Part shown: in pieces, positions 13,803 to 40,848 of the stretch | How the letters are laid out: every line of letters begins with the position of its first letter | Position numbering within the stretch: the first letter of the stretch is position 1 | Origin: a virus | Length of the DNA: 41,822 nt | Strand: one strand, 5' to 3' | IMG/VR virus record: IMGVR_UViG_3300007760_000034 | Coordinates: 1 to 41,822 of that record | Notes under the pieces: model-generated | Seen by the model: the letters and a program-made list of their open reading frames with translations, nothing else | The model's database searches: none | What the model was told of the DNA's origin: nothing | Made by a program: the position numbers and the translations under genes

Positions 13803-14069
13803 CTTTGCGGCAGCGTAATGCTTTAGTTCGCGGCGGTACCTGACCCGTTGACGGGCCGTGTATCCGCCCCATATTCCGAACTCTGATTCGAACTCTAGGG
13901 CGTAGTCAAGACAACAGTTGTTGACTGGGCACGTTTGACAGGTGGCGACGGCTGTCTGCTTGGTGTGGACGGAGAAGAACAACTCCGAGTCCATGTTCTT
14001 GCAGGATGCCTGTTCACGCCACCAGTCTCCGTCGGCTATCGCCCGGAGTCGGCGTTCAGAAAGGTTCAA
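13740..14069 (-). CDS. WhiB-family iron-sulfur transcriptional regulator
   Basis: A 109 aa protein with the complete WhiB signature: Cys23 in ASCKNMDSELFF, then C44xxC47 and C53 in CQTCPVNNCCLDYALEFE, which bind a [4Fe-4S] cluster, followed by the turn FGIWGGYTARQR and a basic C-terminal tail for DNA or sigma-factor contact. WhiB proteins are confined to Actinobacteria and their phages, so this gene is the strongest host marker in the window. Phage WhiB proteins are known to interfere with host WhiB function (mycobacteriophage TM4). It overlaps recT by 14 bases upstream and the holin by 63 bases at the convergent ends. Confidence 0.92.
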   Translation of the reverse strand: MNLSERRLRAIADGDWWREQASCKNMDSELFFSVHTKQTAVATCQTCPVNNCCLDYALEFESEFGIWGGYTARQRVRYRRELKHYAAAKLRQGRWGTVTELGSDDTLSE

Positions 14070-14835
14070 TCTTCGCCGTCCTGTCTTTCACCCATGCGAG
14101 GGCGTCGTCCAGTTCCGGGTAGGTGAGGTTGTCGACGTTCCCGAATATGCCCTTGAACTCGTCGCGCATTTCTCGCGTCACTCCGGGTGCTGTCATCCGT
14201 GACCTGATTTCCCGATGGTCGGCTGTGACGGGTTGAACCTTAGTGACGGTTGTGTCTGGCTGTAGGGATTCCCGCGCTTTTTCGATGGACGCCTTCGGTG
14301 TGGGGGGTGGCGGGGGTGGTGCGAACGCTTCTGCCACATCTGATTCTCTGATTTCTTTGACCGGTTCGGGTGGTGTGTCCCACCGTTCCTCTACGGTGGG
14401 TAGGGACACGTCGAACGCACGCCTGAGGGACATGACTTCAGCGCATTTGACTGCCATCTCGGGTCCGTACTGTTTGTTGCTTCCCGATTTGGGGTACCGG
14501 CCCTTGTAGCGGAACGGGTGCATCATGTCTTTGCGGTACACCTCGACAACTGCCCACCATTCTTTGTCGGTGTCGCCTTCGTCTACGACGACGATGCCGT
14601 TGAGTTGGTGCGATTGGTGCGCTAGGTGCAGCAGCCCGTCTCTGGTGACGTATGTGCTCTTGCCGCTTTTGTTGCCTATGAGAACAACGTGTTTGAGCAG
14701 GGGGTCGAAGCCGTACCGGTTGCAGACTTCGACGAGGGCGTGTGTCGCCGTGTCGTTCGGGTTGAGTCCCAGATATTTGAGGACTTCTTCCTGCTTCTCT
14801 GGTGTTATCACCGGTGCTCGTACTATTTCAGTCAT
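14056..14835 (-). CDS. recT: RecT/Bet-like single-strand DNA annealing protein
   Basis: A 259 aa protein. Residues about 30-145 carry the RecT-family core: ALVEVCNRYGFDPL, then YVTRDGLLHLAHQS, then WWAVVEVYRKDMMHPF, then YGPEMAVKCAEVMSLRRAFDVSLP. The C-terminal half has a polyproline linker (about residues 167-175) and a small charged helical domain. RecT-type proteins anneal complementary single strands in recombination-dependent replication and repair. No partner exonuclease (RecE or lambda-exo type) was recognised. The ATG at 14835 is preceded by GGAAGG, and the gene diverges from an XRE-like gene across 43 bases. Confidence 0.8.
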   Translation of the reverse strand: MTEIVRAPVITPEKQEEVLKYLGLNPNDTATHALVEVCNRYGFDPLLKHVVLIGNKSGKSTYVTRDGLLHLAHQSHQLNGIVVVDEGDTDKEWWAVVEVYRKDMMHPFRYKGRYPKSGSNKQYGPEMAVKCAEVMSLRRAFDVSLPTVEERWDTPPEPVKEIRESDVAEAFAPPPPPPTPKASIEKARESLQPDTTVTKVQPVTADHREIRSRMTAPGVTREMRDEFKGIFGNVDNLTYPELDDALAWVKDRTAKIEPF

Positions 14836-15605: not shown

Positions 15606-15867
15606 TTAGCATCGCTCCTTCTTCGTTGTCCACGTTGGAGATCCACTCCATTTGTTCGAGCATCCACACGGTTTGCACGGCTGCTACCTGTGCTAGTTGG
15701 GTGGCGTCTAGGTCTTCTAACAGTCTGCGTGTACCTGATCGGCTGAAATCGTTGTCGTTGTCCCACGCTGCCCGCAGCAACCCGACCGCTACTTTCCCGG
15801 CCTGTATCACAGGATGTCCAGAAGGGTGGGTTCTTCCCGGGTTTCCTGAGCCTTCGGGTTCAGCCAT
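15544..15867 (-). CDS. Hypothetical protein, 107 aa
   Basis: An ATG frame with AGAGGA upstream, starting within the last 61 bases of the methylase gene. The product is acidic and helical (for example RRLLEDLDATQLAQVAAVQTVWMLEQMEWISN). It is not recognised. Coupled expression after the methylase suggests an accessory early protein. Most of its length is not shared with any other likely gene, which supports it. Confidence 0.6.
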   Translation of the reverse strand: MAEPEGSGNPGRTHPSGHPVIQAGKVAVGLLRAAWDNDNDFSRSGTRRLLEDLDATQLAQVAAVQTVWMLEQMEWISNVDNEEGAMLSVEEQICGLGMEIALSEVGA

Positions 15868-16703
15868 ACTACTTCTGTCCTCTTGCCTCGTGGTTTGATG
15901 TCACGGGTCCAGTCGTCACCCTTGCCCCGTTGACTTGCTGTCATTGTAGTAACCCGGTCGAACTCGACCCGGGTCCAACCTGATGTATCAAACTTGTTGT
16001 AGATGGGGTGGTCGTAACCGGATACTACGACATACCCGTTTGCGCTGATCAGGGCGTCGATCATGGTTTCGTGCTGGTCGTTACTCATTTCGTGGGCGTA
16101 GTACTCGTCTTCGACGCGGGTGTCGTGAACGTACGGTGGGTCAACGTAGAACACCGTGTCGGCCCCGTCCCAGTAGTTGATCGACTCGATGGCGTCTCTC
16201 TGTTCTACCTGAACGGCGCTGAGGCGGTCGTAGATGGCACCCAACCGGTTGATGAGGGATTTCCACCCCGCTACGACAGCGGACTCGCCAGAGACGCTTA
16301 TAGCGGCTCTGGACCAGTTGCCTTGTGTGCGGTATACGCGGCCTACGACGCTCTGGTTCATGTTGACGAACATCGCCCACGCCTGTTCCACGGGGTCCAG
16401 AGGATCGGTTTCGCCTTTGACGATGGCGATTGCTTTGACGAACTCGTCTTTGGAGTACAGCGTTGACCGGAGTCGACGTTCGAGTTCGATGGAGTGTTCG
16501 GGGTGCTGGATGACCCGAAACAGGTTGACGAGGTTGCCGTCGAGGTCGTTGTATACCTCCACGGGTGAGGGTTTGCGGTTGAGCAGCACCGATCCGCCGC
16601 CTCCGAATACGTCAACAAAGAGTTGGTCGTAAGGTATGAGAGGAAGCAGTTCGTCCAACATGCCGCCTTTACCTCCCGGCCACTTCAGCAGCCGGAGACT
16701 CAC
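15807..16703 (-). CDS. dam: DNA adenine methyltransferase (Dam/D12 class)
   Basis: A 298 aa enzyme with the D12-class order of motifs: LKWPGGKG at residues 6-13 (AdoMet-binding motif X), FVDVFGGGGSVLLNR at 29-43 (motif I) and VDPPY at 187-191 (catalytic motif IV). The central region (about 60-180) would be the target-recognition domain. It transfers methyl to adenine N6; the recognised sequence cannot be read from the protein, though Dam-type members often use GATC. In phages such orphan methylases protect DNA from restriction or mark it. No cognate endonuclease is adjacent. ATG overlaps the upstream stop (ATGA). Confidence 0.9.
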   Translation of the reverse strand: MSLRLLKWPGGKGGMLDELLPLIPYDQLFVDVFGGGGSVLLNRKPSPVEVYNDLDGNLVNLFRVIQHPEHSIELERRLRSTLYSKDEFVKAIAIVKGETDPLDPVEQAWAMFVNMNQSVVGRVYRTQGNWSRAAISVSGESAVVAGWKSLINRLGAIYDRLSAVQVEQRDAIESINYWDGADTVFYVDPPYVHDTRVEDEYYAHEMSNDQHETMIDALISANGYVVVSGYDHPIYNKFDTSGWTRVEFDRVTTMTASQRGKGDDWTRDIKPRGKRTEVVWLNPKAQETREEPTLLDIL

Positions 16704-17904: not shown

Positions 17905-17997
17905 TTATATGCCTAGAGGTTCTGTAATCACGACCCAGATGACGTAAACGAGGCCCCATATGACAAGCCACATGATCGCCCCTGACAACTCATCCAC
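17905..17997 (-). CDS. Putative single-span membrane peptide, 30 aa
   Basis: A GTG frame that begins in the last codons of the VWA-protein gene (GTG overlapping its stop) and reads MDELSGAIMWLVIWGLVYVI and on to a TAA at 17905. Almost the whole second half is one hydrophobic span rich in Trp, Val and Ile. An internal ATG at 17973 would give a 22 aa version preceded by AGGGG. It fills a gap in an otherwise gap-free operon, and the membrane pattern is not expected by chance, but its size keeps the call tentative. Confidence 0.4.
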   Translation of the reverse strand: MDELSGAIMWLVIWGLVYVIWVVITEPLGI

Positions 17998-20248
17998 GGA
18001 TCGAGTCGGATATGCGGTCGGCTAGACCTTCCACAACCTCGACGACACCTGCTTCGGTGTCGTAGAGGTTGACCGCTATGGTGTCTAACCCATATTCCTT
18101 CGGCGAGTCGGTTCCTACACCTACTCCGACGACGTGGAGTCTCCGGTCTGGGAGTTGCGCCATCGCTTTCGCCCGTCTGCACTGTGCTTCGAGCATGACC
18201 CTCTGGTTGTCATGGTCCTCGGCGGGCATCGCACCGTCGGTGTAGTAGAGCAAGATCCGGTCGGTTGCCCGTTGCGTGCAGAGCATGTCAATGTAGGTTC
18301 GCATCGTCAACCCGTCGAGGTTCTGATGGGCGGCATGGAGCGAAGCGACACCCGATTTGGCTGCTTCGTCCCACGGTTCCGCAAAGTTCTTGACGAGTTG
18401 GATGGTCGCAAGCGACGCCACATTTGATCCGACCCTACCCCGCAAATCGTCGGCCACTTCTGGGTCACAGTCGACGTTGTGATCGTCTTCACCCACCAGG
18501 TACCGGCCTCCGGTGTGCCCGGCTACCGCAAACGCAATACCTAGCCGCGCAAGCAGCGTTGCTTGCGCGTACGCGAGTTCCACGAGGTATTCGTTGACAT
18601 CTCCAAGGGTTGAACCGGATTGGTCGACTCCGATGAGTACGGCATAGGATCGTTTCCGGGGTTTGTCGATCCGGCGAAATGCTCGACGGTTACCGGTCGG
18701 AACTCGTGCAAGTTTGCTGCCATGCAGCCTTCCTCGCACAAGGTTCGGTGTCGACGCTGACCTCCTGTTCATGCCGAGTGCGTCCGCCAACTTGCGTTGC
18801 GATTTATGAACCGGCGCTTGAACTTTCACTTCGAGGTCGCTGGATTGGTCGAACCCGCCTCCTGCCGGGAACTTGTAGTCGGCGAGCAACTTCACCCCGT
18901 CACCGTATACCGGTACTTTTTCGTAGTCGGGTCGCAGGATCAGAGGCACGTAGCGGCCTTCACCCGAATCTCCAACCAGTCCACTTCCGCCCGGCATTTG
19001 CATCAGGTCGTCGAGGTGTTCCGAGGTGTCCCCGGCTCGGGACTCGTTCATCGCTGCTTGTATCTCAGCCAGAACGGGTTCGAGACTCTCGACGGGTTTA
19101 TCGGCTCCACGGTCAGTCCATTTGGCTCGACCGAACGCCTCTGCTCGAGCAGATCGGTCTGACCGTGCGACAAGTTCCGACCTTTCTTGTTCGAGTTTCT
19201 TTTTGTCTCGAAGCCGTTGGCTTTCTTTCAACTTGCCGTCGTCGCCGAGGTCTTTACCGGACTTGATCGGCTGGGATGCTGCCCGACCGTTTCCGGTGCG
19301 GGAGGTGTCCTCCCCGGTCTGCTCGGGTTGCATACTTTCGAACAACCCGTATGTTTCTCGGGCGTATTCGGCGAGCACAATCCCGGCAGCGACCGCTTCG
19401 GCGGTGGTTTCGAGTTTGAACTTGTCGAGAACACGTTTGACGTTCGGGTCGTTGAGACAGGCCAGAACCGTTTCCGACTTCAGCACCGGTTTCAGGTCGA
19501 GATCGTGTTCGACCTCCAAGTTGACTGCGACACCTACTTGGTATCCGACGGGGCCTTCGACGATGCCTTCACCGGCAGCGGCCCGCACGACGAGCCCTTC
19601 GGCGAGCCGCGCCATCTGTTGACCTAAAGCGGATCGGCTATCGCCGACTGCTTTGTTGATGCGGGCGTCTTCGAAGGCGTTGGCCAGCAGGGGTGCGTCG
19701 GGGTTGAACCATGACGCAACTTCCAACCCTGATCTCGCCAAAACCCGTGGCCCGTTTACACATTGCCGGATGTAATACAACCCTGCGTCGTCGTGCCTGT
19801 CTATGAACGCTTCGGAGAACTCTTCCGGCATACCTTCCATCAGTTTGGCGATGCCGAGTTCTACTCGTTGGCAGAACTCGACATCAACGGGTTTCGTTGA
19901 GCCTTGGCTGATGTGGGCTGCTTCGTGTAACAGCACCCCGACGGTGATGTGGTAGAGGCACGATTCGGGTTCTTCGTCGCATACGCACGGGTTGTCCGGG
20001 TCTATGTCGGCGAAACCGGGGTCTAACGGTAAGTGAACCGTGGCTCCGTCTGTGCAGGGTCCCTGCGAGTGTTGGTTGATTGATACCCGCAGCCCGTTGT
20101 CTCCTGCTGAGGTTCTCACTATGTCTGTGAGCCTCGGCAGGAGACGGGCCGCTACCCGTGCCGCTTCTGCGTAGGATTCGGCCGTGGCGGGCTGGTTGAC
20201 GGGTAGTTCTATACCGGGGTGTTCGACGCTACTCAAGTTCCACCCCAC
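17990..20248 (-). CDS. VWA-domain protein with HEAAH metallopeptidase-like motif (DUF2201/CobT-like)
   Basis: A 752 aa protein, GTG start, partner of the AAA+ gene just upstream (20-base overlap). Residues about 100-118 read YHITVGVLLHEAAHISQG, an HExxH zinc-peptidase motif (H108, E109, H112). Residues about 330-420 are a charged Lys/Glu/Asp linker. From about 535 comes a von Willebrand A domain with an intact metal-ion site: DQSGS (D542, S544, S546), a Thr near 649 and YTDG (D671). A metallopeptidase-like domain plus VWA next to a MoxR ATPase is the layout of DUF2201-type bacterial proteins; CobT-like phage proteins share the VWA part. Substrate unknown. Cysteines at CVCDEEPESC lie just before the HEAAH motif. 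Confidence 0.82.
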   Translation of the reverse strand: MGWNLSSVEHPGIELPVNQPATAESYAEAARVAARLLPRLTDIVRTSAGDNGLRVSINQHSQGPCTDGATVHLPLDPGFADIDPDNPCVCDEEPESCLYHITVGVLLHEAAHISQGSTKPVDVEFCQRVELGIAKLMEGMPEEFSEAFIDRHDDAGLYYIRQCVNGPRVLARSGLEVASWFNPDAPLLANAFEDARINKAVGDSRSALGQQMARLAEGLVVRAAAGEGIVEGPVGYQVGVAVNLEVEHDLDLKPVLKSETVLACLNDPNVKRVLDKFKLETTAEAVAAGIVLAEYARETYGLFESMQPEQTGEDTSRTGNGRAASQPIKSGKDLGDDGKLKESQRLRDKKKLEQERSELVARSDRSARAEAFGRAKWTDRGADKPVESLEPVLAEIQAAMNESRAGDTSEHLDDLMQMPGGSGLVGDSGEGRYVPLILRPDYEKVPVYGDGVKLLADYKFPAGGGFDQSSDLEVKVQAPVHKSQRKLADALGMNRRSASTPNLVRGRLHGSKLARVPTGNRRAFRRIDKPRKRSYAVLIGVDQSGSTLGDVNEYLVELAYAQATLLARLGIAFAVAGHTGGRYLVGEDDHNVDCDPEVADDLRGRVGSNVASLATIQLVKNFAEPWDEAAKSGVASLHAAHQNLDGLTMRTYIDMLCTQRATDRILLYYTDGAMPAEDHDNQRVMLEAQCRRAKAMAQLPDRRLHVVGVGVGTDSPKEYGLDTIAVNLYDTEAGVVEVVEGLADRISDSIRG

Positions 20249-21326
20249 TCAACTCTTCCGGTATCCGTGTCAGCAGGTCCCCTATGGGGTCGCTGGAGTC
20301 TTGGACAAGTTCGGCTGCTGTTGGCTTGGAGTACTTCGCCCAGTCGTGATGGTCGAGTACGTGTACGACTTTGCTGAACGATTGGGTGTCCATCCGTTCG
20401 TACACTTTCGACATGGCTTCACGCACCGGGTGGTATTGGAGAAGTTCCACGAAGTTCATCAACGAACGTGTACCTGCGGTGATACCGAGGTTTCCTTCGT
20501 CGATTGACTTGCGTAGGTCCTTCCATGCCATCAACCCGCACACCACCTGCCACGCCGGAACCCTGTCTAGTTCCCTAGACTCGATGTGGTTGAGGAGTAT
20601 CTCCGCTTCGATCTTCGAGTCCGGCCACCCGACGGCGATGTGCGACAACCTGTCGGCATCTGCTTCGGATAGTGGCAGCAAACCTGCGTACTGGGGCATC
20701 CAGTCGGGGTTTCCTGTTGCGATGATGAAGTTGTGTGCGTGCTTGAGCAGGATGCGTCCGTCGTAGGCGTCTAACGCGAGTTGCGCTGAGTCGTCGAGGA
20801 CGGGTCGTGCCACATGCAGCACAGCGGGTGGTGCAGCGTTCCACTCGTCGATGCAGATAACTCCCGGTCGCCCGAATGATCGGGCTAGACGGGACTGCAC
20901 CCACTCTGTTGTGGAACCTTTCAGTTCGTAGTGACCTGTCACGTCTTCCCGTTCGCTTGTCTCTCCGAGCGGGATGCGCTCGAATGGGACTCGCATCAGG
21001 AAGGCCATGTGGCGGGCCAACTGTGTTTTCCCTACCCCTGACGGACCCCACATCATTGGAACCTTTCCTCGTTGGAGGTCGACGGCCACCGAGTAGACGA
21101 GGCCGTCGTGGTCAATGAAGGTGGATTCGTTGGGTATCTTGATCCGATCCGACTCGGGAAACGATTCGGGGTCGTACTTTGGTAGTTCCACTCCTTTTGG
21201 CCCGTATGTGAACGAGTCAGGGGTGGGTACTGTTACGACACCCGATTGTTTCCCGATCTTCTCGGGGTGGACCACGATGGGTTCGAGAACTTCCCGTGGT
21301 TCCTCATGTTCGGGTTTTCTTAGCAC
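20229..21326 (-). CDS. MoxR/CobS-type AAA+ ATPase
   Basis: A 365 aa protein. After about 75 variable residues comes the ATPase: Walker A GPSGVGKT (94-101), the MoxR-type loop ETSEREDVTGHYEL (122-135), Walker B VICIDEWN (156-163), sensor 1 ATGNP (203-207) and an Arg-containing region ADADRLSH (223-229). MoxR ATPases form hexamers that remodel a substrate delivered by a VWA partner, here the overlapping downstream gene. GTG 21326 has GGAAGGAG upstream. Annotation as cobalt chelatase CobS would be misleading because no corrin genes are present. Confidence 0.87.
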   Translation of the reverse strand: MLRKPEHEEPREVLEPIVVHPEKIGKQSGVVTVPTPDSFTYGPKGVELPKYDPESFPESDRIKIPNESTFIDHDGLVYSVAVDLQRGKVPMMWGPSGVGKTQLARHMAFLMRVPFERIPLGETSEREDVTGHYELKGSTTEWVQSRLARSFGRPGVICIDEWNAAPPAVLHVARPVLDDSAQLALDAYDGRILLKHAHNFIIATGNPDWMPQYAGLLPLSEADADRLSHIAVGWPDSKIEAEILLNHIESRELDRVPAWQVVCGLMAWKDLRKSIDEGNLGITAGTRSLMNFVELLQYHPVREAMSKVYERMDTQSFSKVVHVLDHHDWAKYSKPTAAELVQDSSDPIGDLLTRIPEELSGVELE

Positions 21327-39577: not shown

Positions 39578-40219
39578 ATGTCGTACAGGTTTCTCCATAA
39601 TCCCAAGTCGCCCGAATACTTGGAGTGGAAGTCCCAAGTTCTCAGCCCGACGTTCCCGTGGTATTGGAACCAGTCAACTGCGGGACCGGTATGCCTCACA
39701 GAACTAGGGCTGACCGCAGATGACGACACATCCTTCTGGGGTCACTGTGTGCTGTCACGCCCTGACTCGGCTCCCTACTGGGACGGGGTGAGTTCTCCGG
39801 TCTGCTCCGAACTGTTTGAGCAGACCGTGTGGGTGATGAATGAGATCGCCACCGTCAACAATGTCTCGTTCCAGCCGATACGAATGGCGTTCAACTGCGT
39901 GGTACCCGGCGAGGTGCCCATGTCGATCCCGCATGTTGACCACTACTTCCCGCACGACACCTTCATCATCTACCTGTCTGAGTTCACGGGTGGCAACACA
40001 TGGTTGGAGGGACTTGGAGAAGTCGAACCGGAGGAGGACATGATCCTCATGTTTGACGGAGATGTGCGCCATGCCGGTTGCAGGCCCACGGGAAGCAACG
40101 AGCGCCGTGTTGTGTTTGTCGGAACCAGCGGATTCGTCCCTGAGCACAAGATCCACCGCACCCCCGACGCACGCGCCCAATACTTTGAACCCCTATTACC
40201 CGACAACCATAAGGAGTGA
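39578..40219 (+). CDS. 2OG-Fe(II) oxygenase, first of three
   Basis: A 213 aa protein with the cupin-type iron site: IPHVDHYFPHDTF supplies H119 and D121, MFDGDVRHAGCRP supplies H165, and ERRVVFVGTSG supplies the Arg (176/177) that binds 2-oxoglutarate. The strand LSEFTGGNTWLEG between them is typical. Such enzymes use 2OG and O2 to hydroxylate a protein side chain, nucleobase or small molecule; substrate unknown. It lies directly after the fibre genes and before two further oxygenases. Confidence 0.82.
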   Translation: MSYRFLHNPKSPEYLEWKSQVLSPTFPWYWNQSTAGPVCLTELGLTADDDTSFWGHCVLSRPDSAPYWDGVSSPVCSELFEQTVWVMNEIATVNNVSFQPIRMAFNCVVPGEVPMSIPHVDHYFPHDTFIIYLSEFTGGNTWLEGLGEVEPEEDMILMFDGDVRHAGCRPTGSNERRVVFVGTSGFVPEHKIHRTPDARAQYFEPLLPDNHKE

Positions 40220-40224
40220 CCTAA

Positions 40225-40848
40225 GTGTCCATTGCAACTGACCTAGCCGAACCTCAGACCACTATGAGTGCAGAACCCATCTGGGTTGATCCGTTCATCT
40301 GCCAGTACCAGATGACAGACACGTCGTGTTGTCCTGAAGCAATCGTGAATGCGAACCGGTCTACCCGGTGGGGCATCTCCGGCACAGCGGGCGGAACAAA
40401 CGCTTACATGCGCGACTCAGACCAGTTGCATTTCTTGGAGGCATCGCCTCCGGTGGAGCATGAACCAATCCTCGCTTTCGCTCAAGAATGCTTGGACCAT
40501 TACGTTGGTGAACGTAAGCAGGCCGGGGAGGTGCCCCGGTTCGGGTACACGGAGGGCTACAACATTCTCCGCTACAAGCCCGGTCAGGCATACCACGCCG
40601 TCCATTCAGACCAAGGCCCGGCTTCCCCGATAGGCAACAGGCATCTCACGTTCTGCATGTACCTGAACACGATCACCGACGGCGGTGAGACAGACTTTCC
40701 GACGCAGGAAGCAAAGGTGTCACCGGTGGAGGGTCGGGCTGTGATCTTCCCGGCTGTCTGGACTCATGCCCACCGGTCGCTGCCAGCGAAGGTTGACCGC
40801 TACCTGTTCAACGTGTTTTGGGGATTCTTCCCACCACAGGCAGCATGA
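40225..40848 (+). CDS. 2OG-Fe(II) oxygenase (prolyl-4-hydroxylase-like), second of three
   Basis: A 207 aa protein, GTG start (ATG 40264 is an alternative). It has the prolyl-4-hydroxylase layout: YNILRYKPGQAYHAVHSDQ with H127 and D129, LTFCMYLNTITDGGETDFP, then VIFPAVWTHAHRSLPAKVDRYLF with H183 and a basic residue (R192) for 2-oxoglutarate. GGETDFP is a hallmark of the P4H group. In phages these enzymes' targets are unknown; hydroxylation of Pro-rich fibre proteins encoded just upstream is a testable idea. Confidence 0.85.
   Translation: MSIATDLAEPQTTMSAEPIWVDPFICQYQMTDTSCCPEAIVNANRSTRWGISGTAGGTNAYMRDSDQLHFLEASPPVEHEPILAFAQECLDHYVGERKQAGEVPRFGYTEGYNILRYKPGQAYHAVHSDQGPASPIGNRHLTFCMYLNTITDGGETDFPTQEAKVSPVEGRAVIFPAVWTHAHRSLPAKVDRYLFNVFWGFFPPQAA

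Follow-up and report, generated by a model that had tools for sequence, protein, structure and literature searches.

A viral MoxR-type ATPase and its zincin-like VWA partner: a probable metallopeptidase machine distantly related to CobT

Here we describe a pair of overlapping genes in a virus genome, IMG/VR record IMGVR_UViG_3300007760_000034, whose 41,822 bases (G+C 57%) were analysed as a whole and are called the window below. Both open reading frames (ORFs) lie on the minus strand: first a MoxR-type AAA+ ATPase, then a protein with an HExxH motif in its N-terminal part and a von Willebrand factor A (VWA) domain at its C-terminus, the two sharing bases 20229-20248 (Table 1). This 20-base overlap had already been described in an earlier, database-free look at the letters, which we call the sequence-only reading. 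Such genes have long been filed under vitamin B12: phage 'cobS/cobT' belong to the core genome of cyanophages (PMC8651126), viral genomics reads them as auxiliary B12 metabolism, and the PHROG family that matches the window's VWA protein over its full length, phrog_5298, is itself labelled 'cobalamin biosynthesis protein'. Two papers disagree on what the VWA gene encodes. Liu et al. (2021, PMC8651126) called the architecture CobST and had it join host CobN as a cobaltochelatase, whereas for group 2.2 jumbo phages Iyer et al. (2021, PMC7824862) reported a MoxR ATPase paired with a vWA protein whose N-terminal domain is a metallopeptidase. Our preferred reading of the window pair is an ATP-driven metallopeptidase or chaperone-peptidase; we do not take it for a cobaltochelatase.

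Table 1. Features of the gene pair and its context in the window (pLDDT, predicted local distance difference test; pTM, predicted template-modelling score; MIDAS, metal-ion-dependent adhesion site; A2, the 16-member ATPase alignment)
Feature	Coordinates	Strand	Evidence
Zincin-like + VWA protein, 752 aa, GTG start	17990..20248	-	ORF; phrog_5298, residues 21-745, 2.1e-58
N-terminal zincin-like domain (predicted), residues 15-304	19337..20206	-	AF2 pLDDT 89.8, pTM 0.88; structural comparison headed by metallopeptidases
HEAAH motif, residues 108-112, within helix 98-114	19913..19927	-	Invariant in relatives (45/45); helix in models
E193-D194 of EDAR, candidate third metal ligand	19667..19672	-	D194 45/45, E193 42/45
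Cys/His cluster C88-x-C90-x6-C97-x2-H100, putative structural zinc site	19949..19987	-	Precedes HExxH helix
Charged linker, low confidence, residues 305-465	18854..19336	-	Mostly low pLDDT
VWA/MIDAS domain, residues 466-752	17993..18853	-	VIA Z 22.5 to Rea1-MIDAS, 20.7 to NorD VWA
MIDAS DQSGS, residues 542-546	18611..18625	-	D542, S544, S546 invariant
MIDAS YTDG, residues 669-672	18233..18244	-	T670, D671, G672 invariant
MoxR-type AAA+ ATPase, 365 aa, GTG start	20229..21326	-	ORF; Pfam AAA_5 1.3e-18; phrog_5424 ATPase 1.2e-48
ATPase Walker A GPSGVGKT, residues 94-101	21024..21047	-	G94, G97, K100 invariant (A2)
ATPase Walker B VICIDE, residues 156-161, catalytic Glu 161	20844..20861	-	E161 invariant (A2)
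DNA methyltransferase (context), downstream of pair	15807..16703	-	phrog_56 4.3e-60
Bet/RecT-like ssDNA annealing protein (context), downstream of pair	14056..14835	-	phrog_252 2.6e-9

The argument begins with the HExxH motif, HEAAH in the window protein, found at the residues where the sequence-only reading had placed it. Relatives were drawn from isolate phages, IMG/VR, plasmids and one haloarchaeal virus (a scan with the CRP-810 protein returned no matches), and the motif is present in 16 of 16 proteins of the isolate set and at 31 of 31 IMG/VR loci. The combined set of 45 relatives spans actinophages, cyanophages, Vibrio, Rhizobium and enterobacterial phages, the haloarchaeal virus and IncC plasmids, and it reduces to 33 clusters at 50% identity and 14 at 40%. 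Across this set H108, E109, H112 and D194 are each kept in all 45 sequences and E193 in 42; the sequence-only reading had staked its proposal on the first three, and none of them varies. An alignment of 30 N-domains has only eight invariant columns, and the H, E, H and D account for four of these. In a wider sample HExxH is carried by all 96 intact IMG/VR proteins examined in addition (69 of 69 of cyanophage type, 27 of SSU5 type); this sample includes S-PM2 again (as L074), and many of its members are nearly alike, forming 9 clusters at 50% identity. Three SSU5-type ORFs that lack the motif are cut or broken upstream of its position, and 12 additional loci in this count yielded no ORF by the filter used. 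In total, about 140 viral and plasmid proteins were compared for HExxH. Since every relative with an intact N-terminus carries the motif, its conservation is, as judged from these alignments, far beyond chance.

The same residues can be followed into CobT. PF06213, the CobT N-terminal family, is matched by the proteins of SSU5 (2e-37), CRP-810 (2e-15) and IncC plasmids (5e-6), and the N-domains of these proteins are therefore homologous to that of CobT. A profile of window-type N-domains aligns with one of the SSU5/IncC/ICP2-type at E 1e-12, with the HExxH and ED columns in register, and the latter profile aligns with CobT at E 1e-5. When window-type N-domains were compared with CobT alone by direct hhalign, the match fell short of significance (E 0.065), so the link between the window protein and CobT passes through the SSU5/IncC-type proteins. 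In true CobT, represented by three sequences (Cereibacter, Methylobacterium and PDB 9uka), the HExxH columns read AFALR or SMALR and the ED columns EA or EQ; the compact alignment and hhalign agree on the placement of AFALR/SMALR, and CobT is gapped at HExxH in a global MAFFT alignment of all N-domains. On this comparison CobT is a distant homologue that lacks all four metallopeptidase residues, and it would be a degenerate relative of the viral family, a direction of change that we infer from an unrooted comparison. D194 is the better candidate for the third ligand, because CobT keeps the E and loses the D and because D194 is present throughout the relatives. The site resembles that of a zincin, HExxH with an acidic third ligand that is most likely D194, and it would bind zinc and be active.

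Modelled alone, the N-domain forms a helix, two strands, the HExxH helix, an insert and the ED helix. The full-length model (pLDDT 73) likewise places HExxH within helix 98-114, with the VWA domain at about residues 466-752; searches with this model returned VWA matches only, because the VWA domain fills the match list. When the 289 best Foldseek candidates for the N-domain were realigned with VIA, BepA came first (6sar; Z 5.3, 3.8 Å over 127 residues), and metallopeptidases (BepA, selecase, abylysin, M1 and thermolysin among them) or the related ArdC fill about 29 of the top 31 rows. What suggests a zincin-like fold is the concentration of one superfamily among these matches, each of modest Z. 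The earlier proposal of a metallopeptidase motif with a third zinc ligand is consistent with the model, where the conserved acidic residue D194 falls on a later helix. With BepA, selecase and abylysin (M48-type or minigluzincin) the predicted N-domain shares the two-strand core, the HExxH helix and the later acidic helix, but the structural similarity is weak and the third-ligand motif of the window protein, ED-x-R, differs. Sequence searches of the PDB found no zincin relative. Gordonia phage 'von Willebrand/CobT-like' proteins ranked best in BFVD, ahead of Caudovirales 'CobT', of haloarchaeal tailed viruses and of weaker entries named 'metallopeptidase'. Directly ahead of the HExxH helix most relatives have H85-x4-C90...C-x2-C; in the window protein and those of L022 and L023 both H85 and the leading Cys of the CxxC are missing, and C88, C90, C97 and H100 are shared. 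Because lost ligands are replaced by nearby ones, this cluster suggests a structural zinc knuckle.

The sequence-only reading had also proposed a MoxR-VWA pairing, and this is borne out by an AAA_5 ATPase whose gene overlaps one encoding invariant MIDAS residues and a VWA fold; in the annotated isolate phages examined, too, the VWA gene comes with an ATPase gene. Its Walker and sensor motifs, described there as intact, hold up in alignment A2, where N206 and R226/R272 are invariant as well. For the VWA metal site, the DQSGS and YTDG elements stand and the threonine is doubtful: the family has an invariant Asp-Gly (D645-G646) at what appears to be the fourth position, comparable to NIDG of CobT, with no obvious Thr. 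The pair resembles NorQ-NorD, midasin and RavA-ViaA in joining a MoxR or dynein-like AAA+ to a MIDAS-bearing VWA domain, but the aligned solved chains span the VWA part alone. The ATPases of Gordonia, Rhodococcus and Tsukamurella phages (L003-L012, L017) carry a Cys-rich N-terminal extension that the window's ATPase lacks in A2.

It might be that the zincin fold merely stabilises a ring-docking platform, making the partner a metal-binding, non-proteolytic co-chaperone, as the degenerate domain of CobT would be. That the domain can be of use when its active site is gone is seen in CobT, and proteolysis is not known as the mode of action of such MoxR-VWA pairs as NorQD and RavA-ViaA. This seems unlikely to us nonetheless: the predicted catalytic glutamate, E109, is as invariant as the ligands (45/45) although metal binding alone would not need it, and its retention therefore points to selection for more than metal binding.

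If the N-domain is a peptidase, its neighbours indicate where it may work. The window pair lies on the strand opposite to the terminase, portal and capsid genes. The order ATPase-VWA-...-methyltransferase-...-Bet/RecT-like is kept in L001, L022 and L052, and in L023 up to the genes adjoining the annealing protein, where that locus ends. Cyanophages have gp47-gp46-VWA-CobS-gp45-gp44; in SSU5 and Rhizobium phage N1_15 a DNA polymerase gene comes one to four genes after the pair, and in ICP2 the pair is followed by primase and helicase. On IncC plasmids the order is AAA ATPase-x-ssb-bet-exo-DUF3150-VWA (L056:2516-3793, L062:6855-7823), the pair framing ssb-bet-exo, and the VWA protein carries HEAAH and EDCRIE. 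In SXT, deletion of bet, exo, s067, s068 and s070 cut transfer at most 10-fold (PMC2791158), a set that may or may not include the VWA gene. Among the PHROG and Pfam families displayed around 16 IMG/VR loci are RecT/Bet, DNA methyltransferase, integrase, Ku, HNH and pyrimidine-dimer glycosylase; none of the displayed families belongs to the head or tail. Annotated neighbours in the informative lineages examined are mostly genes of DNA recombination, replication or repair, which argues against the proposal of Iyer et al. (2021, PMC7824862) that the same type of enzyme assembles and processes structural proteins of the virion, an idea drawn by analogy from the ATV tail system and put forward for group 2.2 jumbo phages. 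A role in virion assembly also sits poorly with a homologue on conjugative IncC plasmids, which form no virions, and with the strand of the window pair, and we hold it to be distinctly unlikely. The window itself (42 kb) comes from a non-jumbo phage type, and its pair is likened by architecture to that of the jumbo phages (example protein ASV44728.2).

The window pair is like CobS-CobT (PDB 9uka) in uniting AAA+ and VWA proteins, with N-domain and VWA homologous by profile and an ATPase weakly similar to CobS, but its VWA protein falls short of the CobT thresholds. TIGR01651 gave it no match (equivalog cut-off 759 bits, passed among the proteins scanned by Cereibacter CobT alone, at 808, with SSU5 at 84), PF06213 gave none either, and the only Pfam signal was a sub-threshold CobT_C (PF11775) score of 15.9 bits against 21. 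That the pair acts as a viral CobST, joining host CobN and raising B12 output (Liu et al. 2021, PMC8651126), is very improbable in view of these scores, of the four residues invariant in viruses and gone from CobT, of CobN found in 0 of 23 viral or plasmid records by a search positive in five control genomes (a result compatible with use of a host CobN, which needs no viral copy), and of the haloarchaeal virus HCTV-2, a member of Saparoviridae, a family named by Liu et al., whose homologue has HEMEH and EDQYID. The sequence-only reading was right to distrust the 'cobalt chelatase' label, and 'vitamin B12 biosynthesis' is probably wrong for these phage genes.

We give a probability of about 0.6 to the reading that the pair is an ATP-driven zincin-type metallopeptidase machine, and not a cobaltochelatase, with a DNA-bound protein or a recombination or replication factor as its target. 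The two genes would encode one machine, a MoxR-family AAA+ ring coupled to a VWA partner whose C-terminal VWA/MIDAS domain would dock with either the ring or the substrate, in the manner of NorQ-NorD and midasin. The conserved N-domain would hold zinc and act as the peptidase, while ATP hydrolysis would remodel the target protein and either present it to the peptidase or gate the peptidase. A DNA-linked target is favoured because the genes sit in DNA recombination and replication modules, and a capsid or tail protein would be less likely than a factor in recombination or replication or a protein sitting on the DNA of the phage or its host. Several points weigh against the metallopeptidase machine. 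Zinc binding, proteolysis and the substrate are all deduced from sequence and gene context; E193, which shares helix 185-204 with D194, is an alternative third ligand; Foldseek of the N-domain against the PDB gave no significant match, and its VIA Z scores (<=5.3) lie in a range that VIA's own note grades as ambiguous. The neighbourhood argument is one of guilt by association, the neighbouring PHROG families displayed are 25 of the 43 found near the IMG/VR loci, and the neighbours in Gordonia phages are nearly all hypothetical.

The DUF2201_N / COG3864 predicted metallopeptidases also fuse an HExxH-type domain to a VWA-like domain. A relation to them had been suggested from the letters and had to be given up: the hidden Markov model PF13203 has no match in the window record even at E 10, whereas three control genomes do match, and the fold matches are weak and only to viral VWA-like proteins. 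DUF2201_N membership was thus rejected; by its profile matches the window family is a distant homologue of CobT itself.

Iyer et al. (2021, PMC7824862) had published the MoxR-VWA-metallopeptidase architecture before, in jumbo phages. What we add is a way to tell these viral and plasmid proteins from CobT by single residues, the proposal that CobT is a degenerate relative of them, and gene neighbourhoods that speak against a mainly structural role. An invariant HExxH and D, absent from solved CobT, suggests that many auxiliary-metabolism annotations need review, and the common DNA-recombination neighbourhoods are a place to look for a substrate. More speculatively, and with considerable doubt on our part, widespread viral and plasmid AAA+-driven metalloproteases might clear or cut DNA-bound proteins in recombination and replication, CobT being their derived, catalytically dead cousin. 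If true, viruses would have a counterpart that follows the logic of p97 with SPRTN/Wss1.

A few further observations concern the surroundings of the pair. A protein of about 250 residues, phrog_5406, with a Cys/His cluster and, by eye, a helix-turn-helix-like C-terminus, is encoded near the pair in 10 of the 16 IMG/VR loci, some 1-2.5 kb downstream of the VWA gene (L024, L026, L032-L035, L037, L041, L047, L051); it is a candidate third component and was not seen in the window. Assignment to a defence system was rejected, the PADLOC matches being weak and to the P-loop only. L052, a contig of 17.8 kb that had been put into a Pacearchaeota metagenome-assembled genome, has the same operon (identities of 64% for the VWA protein, 88% for the ATPase and 90% for the methyltransferase) and is probably viral and mis-binned. 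Elsewhere in the window, the adjoining ORFs 39578-40219 and 40225-40848 have PHROG matches, to endonuclease V / 2OG-Fe(II) oxygenase and to DNA endonuclease.

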